From positions 1 to 32,031 of the forward strand of contig CANGPX010000014.1 of the NCBI GenBank assembly GCA_947456095.1: a stretch of DNA of 32,031 nucleotides, in the 5' to 3' direction. The notes beneath the pieces were generated by a model. That model ran no database searches, was not told where the DNA came from, and saw only the letters and a program-made list of their open reading frames with translations. Below, piece by piece: positions 12,443-16,485 of this stretch (positions within the stretch are counted from its first letter, which is position 1; each line of letters starts with the position of its first letter). The DNA comes from Acidimicrobiaceae bacterium. GTDB lineage: Bacteria; Actinomycetota; Acidimicrobiia; Acidimicrobiales; RAAP-2. A program made the translations under genes and the position numbers.

Positions 12443-14155
12443 ATGGACACCACCCGAGCGAGCAGAAGTTTCGAAGCAACGAGTGAGTACACCGTTGAGT
12501 TGGCTGATGGATCACGGGTCCATCGTGACCATTTGGCCCAAAACGAGCGGCTGCAACCTCGACTCGAGTCACCACGAAGTGGTGTGTGGTGTGCGATTGG
12601 CAATGGACTATCCAACCAGACCTTCATTGAAGGACCCGGTGGCATTATTGCCATTGATTCTGGTGAAAGCCAAGAAGAGATGGCCGCTTCACTTGCACAA
12701 CTGCGACAAGTCACCACTTCGCCAATCGTGGCCGTGCTCTACACCCACTTCCATTACGTCAGCGGAACACAGGCCATCATGGAAGAGGCCGGCACCACCT
12801 TGCCGATCTATGGCCACAAAAAAATCGACGGCAACTTGGCTCGTGCTTCGACAGAAATCGCCCCGACCTACAGCCGTGGCCTCATTGAGCAGTTCGCGAT
12901 TGCGTTGCCAGGCGAAGGCCCCGATCATGCTCAAAACGTTGGCCTCGGCCTCTACTGGAAGCGCCCAGACCTCGGAAGATCAACTCCTGGCTATCTCCCG
13001 CCAGACGTCACTTTTGACGACAACACCACCTTGGAAGTGGCGGGCCTCACCATTGAAGTCACCATGGCGCCATCAGACGCCGATGACTCGGTGACCTATT
13101 TCTTCCCCGAGTTAGGTGTTGCCGTCCACAACCTTGTGTGGCCACTGCTGTTCAACATCTTTGCCATCCGTGGCGAAGAGTACCGCGACCCAAACGTCCT
13201 CATTCGCGGTATTGATCATTTACTTTCCCTCGGCGCTGAACACCTAGTCGCCACCCATGGACCGTCCATGTCGGGAGCAGAAGAAATTGTCGCCAGAGTC
13301 ACTCGCTACCGCGACTCGCTTGCGTTCATCTGGGACCAAACCGTGCGCCAGACCAACTTGGGGGCAACGACCAATGACTTGGCCCACACCGTGCAACTGC
13401 CCGCTCTCTACGGCGAAGACTTCCTGACCACTGAGCTCTATGGGGTTGTTGAGCACCACGCTCGTCAAATCAGAAGTGGCCTATTTGGCTTCTTTGACGG
13501 CGACCCGGCCAACTTGTTCCCCGTGAAAACCGCTGAGCGTTCGGCTCGGCTCATTGCTGGATTCGGTGGTGAACACCTCGTGCGAAGCGAGGTGGAAGCT
13601 TCCTTCGCAGCAGATGACCTTCGCTGGGGCATTGAACTCGCCTCATGGCTGTCAACAAGAGACGACGCCGCAACGCAAGACCACGAACTCTTAGCCAAAG
13701 GCCTGCGGCTCATTGCCGAGCGGACAACGGCTGCCAATATTCGCAATTGGTGCTTGACGAGGGCACGAATCCTTGAGGGCTCTCTCGATGCGGGATGGAT
13801 GAAAGTCCATCAACTCCGCCCGAAAGTCGTCGCAGCGTCACCACTCGAGCGCTCAGTGCATTTGCTTCGCGTCCTCGTTGACCCAAAGCGAGCTGAAGGT
13901 ATTGACGTCCACGTGGCGTTCTGTTTTGGTGAAGAAACAGCTGGACTCCATGTGCGCAACTCCATTGCCGCGCCGACGTCAGGGGAGGGGGCAACGGTGA
14001 CCCTTCGTGGCACGAAGTCAACATGGACAAATCTCCTGTGTGGCAACGTCAGCCTCCAAGCCTTGCTCGACAGCGGCGAAGGAGAAGTTGTGGGGGACGT
14101 CCAAGATCTCGTTCGTGCGCTGTCGGTCTTTGACCTCCCCGCCCTTCGCTCATGA
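12443..14155 (+). CDS. Alkyl-sulfatase-like MBL-fold hydrolase with altered metal motif
   Basis: The 570-residue protein has the three-part layout of BDS1/SdsA1-type alkyl sulfatases: a metallo-beta-lactamase domain (about 45-275), an all-helical dimerisation domain (about 280-425, including EYRDPNVL at its border) and a C-terminal SCP2-like domain (about 450-570). Family members hydrolyse sulfate esters of primary or secondary alkyl chains with two zinc ions. Here the usual THxHxDHxGG reads THFHYVSGTQ (101-110): His102 and His104 remain, but the Asp-His pair is replaced by Val106-Ser107. Other likely ligands are His229 (AVHN) and His272 (THGP). Metal number or chemistry may therefore differ. 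The gene overlaps the arylsulfatase gene by 4 nt (ATGA). No signal peptide was seen, so it is probably cytoplasmic. Confidence 0.82.
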   Translation: MDTTRASRSFEATSEYTVELADGSRVHRDHLAQNERLQPRLESPRSGVWCAIGNGLSNQTFIEGPGGIIAIDSGESQEEMAASLAQLRQVTTSPIVAVLYTHFHYVSGTQAIMEEAGTTLPIYGHKKIDGNLARASTEIAPTYSRGLIEQFAIALPGEGPDHAQNVGLGLYWKRPDLGRSTPGYLPPDVTFDDNTTLEVAGLTIEVTMAPSDADDSVTYFFPELGVAVHNLVWPLLFNIFAIRGEEYRDPNVLIRGIDHLLSLGAEHLVATHGPSMSGAEEIVARVTRYRDSLAFIWDQTVRQTNLGATTNDLAHTVQLPALYGEDFLTTELYGVVEHHARQIRSGLFGFFDGDPANLFPVKTAERSARLIAGFGGEHLVRSEVEASFAADDLRWGIELASWLSTRDDAATQDHELLAKGLRLIAERTTAANIRNWCLTRARILEGSLDAGWMKVHQLRPKVVAASPLERSVHLLRVLVDPKRAEGIDVHVAFCFGEETAGLHVRNSIAAPTSGEGATVTLRGTKSTWTNLLCGNVSLQALLDSGEGEVVGDVQDLVRALSVFDLPALRS

Positions 14156-16485
14156 CCGAATCTGAATCTCTTCCCCGGCCAACTCCCCCTTTTACTGGGC
14201 AGATTGGCCGCCTGATGGAAGATGCCACCCCGGCCAAGATGGAGCGCAGTGGGCCAAGAGGGGACGCACCAAATGTGTTGCTCATTGTTTTAGATGATGT
14301 TGGATTTGGATCCTTCGAAGCCTTTGGTGGGCCAGTCCCCTCGCCAGGACTCAACAAAGTGACCAGTGAAGGTCTCACCTACAACGCCTTTCACACGACA
14401 GCGTTGTGCTCACCCACGAGAGCCGCGATTTTGACTGGGCGCAATCACCACCGAGTCCACATGGGTGGTATCCCAGAAATTGCCAACACCTATCCCGGTT
14501 ACGACAGTGCCATGCCCGAAGAAGCGGCCACCGTGGCCGAAGTGCTGAGGCAACATGGTTATGCCACGGGCTGTTTTGGCAAATGGCACTTGACCCCAAG
14601 TTGGGAGCAAAGTCCCGCTGGGCCGTTTACTCACTGGCCAACGGGGATGGGTTTTGAGCGCTTCTATGGAATCTTGGGAGCCGAGTGCTCGCAATTTGAG
14701 CCACCGGTCTATGACCAAACAACCCCAATCTCTCCGCATGTTGGCCGAGAGAACTACCACCTGACTGAAGACTTGGTTGATCAAACCCTGACCTGGATTG
14801 ACCGGGTCAAAGCTTCGTCACCAACCAAGCCCTTCTTCACGTATTTCTCCACGCCAGCGGTCCATGCACCCCATCACGTCGCCCCTGAATGGATCGACAA
14901 GTTCAAGGGTCACTTTGACGAAGGCTGGGACGTCCTGCGCGAAGCGATCTACAAGCGCCAACTCGACCTTGGGATTATCCCTGCAGGCACCGCACTCACC
15001 CCTCGACCAGAAGGGATCCCCGCCTTTGCCGATTACCCCGAGCGCTACCGCCCAGTTGCTGCTCGACTGATGGAGACCTTCGCTGGGTTTTTGGCCCACA
15101 CGGACTTTCATATCCACTTCATGCTTCAAGGACTTGAGGACCGGGGACTGCTCGACAACACGCTCGTCATCTATTTGACCGGTGACAACGGCGCCTCTGC
15201 TGAAGGCACGGTGCACGGTGCCTGGTCGGCACCGAGTTTCCAAAATGGACGTGCCGAAGACCCAGAGTGGCTCCTTGCCCACATGGACGACTTTGGCTCC
15301 GCTCGTTGCGAAAACCACTACAACATTGGCTGGGCTTGGGCACTTGACGCTCCATTTCAGTGGATGAAGCAAGTGGCTTCACACTTTGGTGGCACCCGCA
15401 ATGGTCTCGGGATTCGCTGGCCACAAGGGATCTCGGCAACTGGCCTTCGCCCACAGTTCCATCATGTGGTTGATCTCGCCAGCACCATCTATGACGTGAC
15501 CGGCATCACCCCTCCAAGCCAGGTCAATGGCTTGGAGCAACTCCCCATTGATGGCACCTCCATGCGCTACAGCTTTCATGCGCCAGAGGCCAAGACCACG
15601 AGAACCACCCAGTACTTTGAGATTCTTGGCAATCGAGCGATTTACCACGATGGATTTGTTGCCGCCTGTTTTCATGGTCGCCCCCCATGGATCCGACTCC
15701 AAGGTCTCCCCTTCGATGGCGAACAAGAGCACTGGGAGCTCTACGACATCGCCGGCGATTTCTCTCAAGCACACGATCTGAGCGAGCAGTTCCCGGAAAA
15801 ATTAGAAGCATTGAAAGCGCTGTTCCATGATGTTGCCCTCGACAACAACGTTTACCCGCTCAGAGACCCAGGGTCACCGAGATTTGGTGACTTGGCTGTC
15901 CCCCACGTGCTTGGCGACGTGACAGAGATGACCTACACCAAAGCCCATGTGCGTATGCCTGAGCCTTCGGTGCTCAACGTGAAGAACTGCTCGTACAAGG
16001 TGAGCGCCACGATTGAGGTCACGAACCTCAGTCACGGCGTCGTGGTTGCCCAAGGCGGGAACATGGCCGGCTGGGCTCTCTACGTCGACGAAAGTCGCGT
16101 CGCACATTTTCACTACAACTACTACGGCCATGAGCACACGAACGTCGCGGCAAACGTTCCCCTTGGCCTCGGTCGACAAAGCATCACGGTGGAATTTGCC
16201 TACGACGGCGGCTTTGGTGCCGGTGGCGACGTGGCAATGTCCATCAACGAAGAACTCGTGGGCGTTGGTCGAATTCCCGCCACCGTGCCGCTCGTGTTTT
16301 CCATGAGTGGCGAGACCTTTGACGTTGGCACCGACACTGGTTCCCCCGTTGGTCCCTACCCCCATGACTTCTCCTACGACGATGAAATTGTCTCGGTGGT
16401 GTTAACGAGACTCAGTGAGCCATCACCAGCGGTCAAAGCCCAGGTCGAAGAAGGACTTAAACGGGCCGCATTTTCTGCCCACTGA
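14152..16485 (+). CDS. Arylsulfatase, type I formylglycine sulfatase
   Basis: This enzyme hydrolyses sulfate monoesters. At 777 residues it matches the long actinobacterial arylsulfatases (mycobacterial AtsA and AtsD are of similar size). Metal-binding Asp48-Asp49 lies in VLDDVGFG. The sulfatase signature CSPTRAAILTG (86-96) carries Cys86, which must be oxidised to formylglycine by a separate enzyme not in this window. Further active-site parts are GKWH (143-146), a His-rich AVHAPHH segment near 240 and GDNG (344-347). Residues from about 610 form an extra beta-rich C-terminal domain. No export signal is visible. It is the second gene of the operon with the alkyl-sulfatase-like protein, suggesting joint use on sulfated organic compounds. 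The natural substrate is unknown. Confidence 0.93.
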   Translation: MTESESLPRPTPPFTGQIGRLMEDATPAKMERSGPRGDAPNVLLIVLDDVGFGSFEAFGGPVPSPGLNKVTSEGLTYNAFHTTALCSPTRAAILTGRNHHRVHMGGIPEIANTYPGYDSAMPEEAATVAEVLRQHGYATGCFGKWHLTPSWEQSPAGPFTHWPTGMGFERFYGILGAECSQFEPPVYDQTTPISPHVGRENYHLTEDLVDQTLTWIDRVKASSPTKPFFTYFSTPAVHAPHHVAPEWIDKFKGHFDEGWDVLREAIYKRQLDLGIIPAGTALTPRPEGIPAFADYPERYRPVAARLMETFAGFLAHTDFHIHFMLQGLEDRGLLDNTLVIYLTGDNGASAEGTVHGAWSAPSFQNGRAEDPEWLLAHMDDFGSARCENHYNIGWAWALDAPFQWMKQVASHFGGTRNGLGIRWPQGISATGLRPQFHHVVDLASTIYDVTGITPPSQVNGLEQLPIDGTSMRYSFHAPEAKTTRTTQYFEILGNRAIYHDGFVAACFHGRPPWIRLQGLPFDGEQEHWELYDIAGDFSQAHDLSEQFPEKLEALKALFHDVALDNNVYPLRDPGSPRFGDLAVPHVLGDVTEMTYTKAHVRMPEPSVLNVKNCSYKVSATIEVTNLSHGVVVAQGGNMAGWALYVDESRVAHFHYNYYGHEHTNVAANVPLGLGRQSITVEFAYDGGFGAGGDVAMSINEELVGVGRIPATVPLVFSMSGETFDVGTDTGSPVGPYPHDFSYDDEIVSVVLTRLSEPSPAVKAQVEEGLKRAAFSAH

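Follow-up and report, generated by a model that had tools for sequence, protein, structure and literature searches.

An alkylsulfatase-like protein with a divergent metal-binding motif

The window analyzed here, a 32,031-nucleotide stretch of contig CANGPX010000014.1 from an Acidimicrobiaceae bacterium, codes for a protein that is built like a type III alkylsulfatase of the metallo-beta-lactamase (MBL) fold, but in which the family motif THxHxDHxGG reads THFHYVSGTQ. This raises the question of whether a protein with such a motif is a working enzyme and, if so, how its metal site is constructed and what it does beside the arylsulfatase encoded immediately downstream. The source assembly is 2.0 Mb and 80% complete, and the closest relative identified is an assembly of an Acidimicrobiaceae bacterium. 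It also contains an alkylsulfatase-like gene with an intact HSHPDH motif, and a third, more distant protein of 429 aa with MBL and dimerization domains and an intact HGHADH (locus L003, G000:C1:46827-47906).

The gene spans positions 12443 to 14155 on the forward strand, as do all features described below, and its 570-aa product has Pfam matches above cut-off to Lactamase_B (2.5e-5), Alkyl_sulf_dimr (7.9e-24; PF14863, residues 309 to 445, positions 13367 to 13777), and Alkyl_sulf_C (3e-10; PF14864, the SCP2-like C-terminal domain, residues 459 to 566, positions 13817 to 14140), bearing out the three-domain layout given in an initial annotation made from the sequence. The closest solved structures are the type III alkylsulfatases YjcS, SdsAP, Pisa1, and SdsA1, with a phmmer match to 2cfu covering residues 45 to 447, and the predicted fold matches all four with Z scores of 20.6 to 22.6. 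The structure model was built from four sequences and has a mean pLDDT of 59, with the loops at residues 129 to 183, 211 to 214, and 235 to 247 below 50, and is too weak at the metal site for geometry to be read from it. The N terminus is shorter than those of the solved relatives and has no hydrophobic leader, and the protein is thus probably cytosolic.

The dinuclear site has lost three ligands and retains four

In SdsAP, one zinc is bound by D196, H197, H367, and E322 and the other by H192, H194, E303, and E322 (PMC5426288). The altered motif occupies residues 101 to 110 (positions 12743 to 12772), and the open reading frame translates as YTHFHYVSGTQ at residues 100 to 110, as initially reported; codons for T101 and H102 start at 12743 and 12746, respectively, so that the interval first assigned to the motif (12746 to 12775) begins at H102. 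A HMMER alignment with SdsAP places H102 and H104 at H192 and H194, lacks two residues (x and D196), and sets Tyr105 opposite H197. Over residues 108 to 118, in the helix that comes next, the BLOSUM62 score is +0.69 per residue with this two-residue deletion versus −1.31 ungapped. The change is therefore a deletion of the Asp combined with replacement of the His by Tyr, and Val106 and Ser107 are not the equivalent residues. The initial annotation was thus correct that both ligands are gone, but not that Asp-His had become Val-Ser.

A third ligand, the bridging Glu (SdsAP E322), is also lost. Anchored on the downstream R-G-x3-R motif, its place falls at residue 229 by comparison with the nearest relatives (SAEV...) and at residue 230 by comparison with the SdsA1-like group (MAEN...), which are His229 and Asn230 in the window protein (positions 13127 to 13132). 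Among 40 sequences sharing the altered motif, referred to here as the HxHY clade, neither position is acidic, bar one Asp229; Asn230 is invariant, and residue 229 is His in 22, Asn in 14, Gln in 3, and Asp in 1. His229 does lie at or beside an acidic ligand position, as first suggested, but a shifted ligand set built on it finds no support: its presence in only 22 of 40 members speaks against it as a clade-wide replacement ligand, although it could act as one in single members. The remaining ligands, H102, H104, D212, and H272, are retained. Asp212 (positions 13076 to 13078) is at the E303 position, where Pisa1 also has an Asp (PMC5426288), and His272 (positions 13256 to 13258) is at the H367 position; both are invariant in all 40 members.

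With Tyr105 opposite the lost His and with His272 kept, a normal two-metal site might be envisaged, completed by Tyr105, Asn230, His272, and sometimes His229, and supporting ordinary alkylsulfatase activity. We regard this as improbable, as the Asp is missing altogether, 39 of the 40 members have no bridging carboxylate, residue 229 is variable, and the His that serves the leaving group is missing too.

The sulfate-binding loop is better preserved. In SdsA1 this loop includes Arg312, Arg317, and Asn307 (PMC5066984), which align with Arg243 and Arg248 (RGEEYR, positions 13169 to 13186) and with Asn238, respectively. In Pisa1, the sulfate leaving group receives its proton from a His (PMC3920027); counted along the loop, which is our own reading of the alignment, the corresponding place in Pisa1 and SdsA1 is taken by Phe237 in the window protein. 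With this substitution, standard alkyl-sulfate hydrolysis along the established route appears doubtful, and a different substrate or reaction becomes conceivable. The nearest relatives with an intact DH likewise lack the leaving-group His.

The SulfAtlas S3 family is delimited by the HxHxDH motif, an identity of 30% or more to SdsA1 over ~600 residues, and a sulfate-loop pattern (PMC5066984). The window protein and all 40 clade members have HxHY instead, and identity to SdsA1 is ~20 to 22% in a structure-based alignment of ~380 residues. In the loop pattern, [AGSIT]-[EDNA]-...-[HP]-[NDQA]-...-[RCT]-G-...-R, His229 does not fit [AGSIT] and Phe237 does not fit [HP], although the other defined positions fit, including both arginines. 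The MBL, dimerization, and SCP2-like domains of S3 are all present by Pfam and fold match. Judged by these published definitions, the window protein is not an S3 member in spite of its fold, layout, and most of its sulfate loop. What it shares with SdsA1, SdsAP, Pisa1, and YjcS is the fold, layout, HxH, carboxylate 212, His272, Arg243, Arg248, and Asn238, whereas the deleted Asp, the His-to-Tyr change, the lost bridging Glu, the Phe in place of the leaving-group His, the low identity, and the shorter N terminus with no evident signal peptide set it apart. The nearest canonical proteins by profile score (~257 to 337 bits) are DH-intact proteins such as those of Caballeronia (L008) and genome G670 (L063), which have similar loop lengths before R-G-x3-R and also lack the leaving-group His but keep the full HxHxDH and the bridging Glu.

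The variant arose once and is under purifying selection

The altered motif is not peculiar to this genome. A homolog with 86% identity in another assembly has it, as do 38 further relatives, and dN/dS relative to the 86%-identical homolog is ~0.07 (dN 0.083, dS 1.14). Sequencing error, chance, and decay are thereby ruled out as its source, in agreement with the earlier view that the gene is not decaying. An alignment of 71 sequences contains 40 with HxHY and 31 with HxHxDH, with no intermediates, and all 40 share the form HxHYxxG[T/S]. Whether the variant makes a clade is answered by a maximum-likelihood tree (a quick search, with support by SH-aLRT and without bootstrap) from which the active-site columns were removed: a branch with SH-aLRT support of 99 separates all 40 HxHY sequences from the rest, such that a single change accounts for them and the remodeling of the site happened only once.

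Residues invariant in all 40 members include H102, H104, Y105, D212, N230, W233, N238, R243, R248, and H272. Six residues are invariant in the clade yet rare in the canonical forms, and four of these (Y105, D212, N230, and W233) are located in or next to the metal site, which is the pattern to be expected if selection acts on a reconstructed site.

The clade is found in Acidimicrobiia, Caulobacterales, and other Pseudomonadota, with members in Phenylobacterium, a Pseudomonadaceae assembly, and a Vibrio fortis plasmid. A scan of 296 Acidimicrobiia genomes is bimodal, with 30 matches above 580 bits, one at 442 bits, and one contig-edge fragment, and with DH-intact relatives below ~290 bits; in a sample of the phylum Actinomycetota, every above-threshold match is within Acidimicrobiia. 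One genome (G626, L109:6965-10452) has tandem HxHY genes with a 4-bp overlap, beside an MFS transporter and GMC oxidoreductases. No description of the HxHY variant was found in the open-licence literature searched, and a deep-branching member is publicly annotated only as an "alkyl sulfatase dimerization domain-containing protein."

The clade is tied to one arylsulfatase lineage in Acidimicrobiia

The stop codon of the HxHY gene overlaps (ATGA) the start of a gene coding for a 777-aa formylglycine-type arylsulfatase (positions 14152 to 16485). It has the hallmarks of the S1 formylglycine sulfatases, with CSPTR (residues 86 to 90, positions 14407 to 14421), GKWH, and GDNG, and a PF00884 match at 5.7e-55. 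The previously proposed operon with an intact arylsulfatase is thus upheld by both the overlap and the intact CSPTR. The sulfatase core and CSPTR motif resemble those of PAS-type arylsulfatases (1hdh), but the protein has ~220 additional C-terminal residues and, in Acidimicrobiia, is almost constantly paired with an HxHY gene.

Among the 296 Acidimicrobiia genomes, the HxHY gene is present in 32 and the partner sulfatase lineage, counted at >1250 bits or as a split copy in G153, also in 32, with both in 31. One genome has only the HxHY gene, one or two have only the sulfatase, and ~263 have neither (31/1/2/262 if G024 is included), corresponding to a Fisher p of ~1e-39 that is uncorrected for kinship. 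Of the exceptions, G254 combines a deep-branching HxHY gene with an adjacent sulfatase of lower similarity (722 bits), and in G178 the sulfatase is truncated by a contig end. G024 contains a partner-type sulfatase split by a frameshift (L159:2342-4662), reflecting decay or an assembly error, and no HxHY gene was found in it. In the 32 HxHY genomes, the sulfatase is directly downstream in 25, adjacent but differently arranged in three, and at an unlinked position in four. The remaining neighbors vary between genomes and include heme biosynthesis, formate-dehydrogenase-like, and purine genes, among others, and the adjacency is thus not mere regional synteny. As neighbors other than the sulfatase differ in this way, no substrate is inferred from flanking genes. 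In G211 and G169, the HxHY gene shares an operon with upstream genes that resemble those for glycerol-3-phosphate oxidase, GlcD, and glycerol kinase (L095:7998-14179 and L096:3536-9713), with the partner sulfatase located elsewhere, and this glycerol-type operon is a possible substrate hint. Distances within the two partner families correlate at 0.50 overall, with none of 2,000 permutations as high, and at −0.06 for pairs that involve genomes with unlinked genes. An orthologous partner is absent from the Pseudomonadota members tested, in which the best match is 893 bits (G809), and a different pathway may operate in these organisms.

The loss of three canonical ligands and the leaving-group His, together with gene coupling to and co-occurrence with a single sulfatase lineage, could be taken to mean that the HxHY protein is an inactive subunit, stabilizer, or substrate-delivery partner of the arylsulfatase, the last by way of its SCP2-like domain. 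This is unlikely: the invariance of H102, H104, D212, and H272 in all 40 members and the acquisition of new invariant site residues would not be expected of a dead site, and the Pseudomonadota members exist without that sulfatase.

Formylglycine maturation

Activation of the partner offers another potential role, in which the HxHY protein is a maturation factor that, for example, converts the sulfatase cysteine to formylglycine. Many genomes with the pair have neither a formylglycine-generating enzyme (FGE) nor a radical-SAM maturase, in keeping with such a role. Nonetheless, we consider it very improbable. No FGE was found in the source genome (80% complete), but it does code for a radical-SAM maturase (TIGR03942, 425 bits versus a cut-off of 349); other pair-bearing genomes have FGE, and the same genomes code for further C-x-P-x-R sulfatases without such a partner. 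Twelve assemblies that are 93 to 99% complete (G039, G145, G031, G165, G102, G019, G238, G202, G008, G217, G091, and G295) have several sulfatases each, and those read keep C-x-P-x-R, with no FGE-family match at 1e-20 and no radical-SAM maturase above cut-off. These may have another route to formylglycine, or the assemblies may have gaps.

A proposed mononuclear alkylsulfatase variant

Taken together, the HxHY clade probably represents a working enzyme with altered chemistry rather than a broken one, and the residues kept fit either a one-metal site or a different reaction. We favor, with a probability of roughly 0.5, a mono-metal alkylsulfatase variant acting in one pathway with the co-encoded arylsulfatase. 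The retained His-His-carboxylate set corresponds to a real metal site in SdsAP (H192, H194, and E303), and a single metal on two His and one Asp has a precedent within the MBL fold in ETHE1 (PMC4383860), albeit with ligands at other positions. The zinc site formed by the Asp, His, and bridging Glu would have been dismantled through the two-residue deletion, the His-to-Tyr change, and loss of the Glu, with the other site (H102, H104, and D212) and the sulfate-loop arginines being spared. A single metal on these three residues would then activate water in a cytosolic hydrolase, with Tyr105, Asn230, and His272 shaping or protonating the site and Arg243 and Arg248 holding sulfate or a similar anion. 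In Acidimicrobiia, the enzyme and the formylglycine arylsulfatase would share a pathway, and the substrate of the former would probably be a sulfated small molecule of the type that the latter attacks, or the product thereof.

The same His-His-Asp triad could also hold one redox-capable metal (Fe or Mn) and catalyze something else in the same catabolic route, such as a cleavage that requires oxygen, or the hydrolysis of an ether or of an ester other than a sulfate ester. ETHE1, a persulfide dioxygenase, is a precedent as an MBL-fold protein with a single iron on two His and one Asp (PMC4383860), and the wider superfamily includes the MBL-type aryl-ether hydrolase DnhAB (PMC11631463). However, ETHE1 binds its metal at other positions, still has the Asp and His lost in HxHY, and catalyzes a different reaction, and the sulfate-loop arginines kept in the HxHY clade favor a sulfate ester, making this a lesser possibility. 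A specific link to the DNAN demethylase DnhAB was set aside, as its subunits are just ~320 aa.

A further-reaching version of the mono-metal reading, which we put forward only tentatively, is that HxHY proteins are a class of their own: mononuclear MBL enzymes that evolved from two-zinc alkylsulfatases through a single loop deletion, catalyze a different reaction with small molecules that are sulfated or have been desulfated, and operate as a two-enzyme unit together with a dedicated formylglycine arylsulfatase.

Implications

With ligand loss occurring once, a precise alternative set of residues being kept, and a tie to a single sulfatase lineage in one bacterial class, the broad HxHY clade provides a clean natural test of how a two-metal hydrolase can turn into a one-metal enzyme. 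The domain-only public annotation of a deep-branching member hides the real reaction of the clade, and the HxHY protein may have a role in how Acidimicrobiia use organosulfates.
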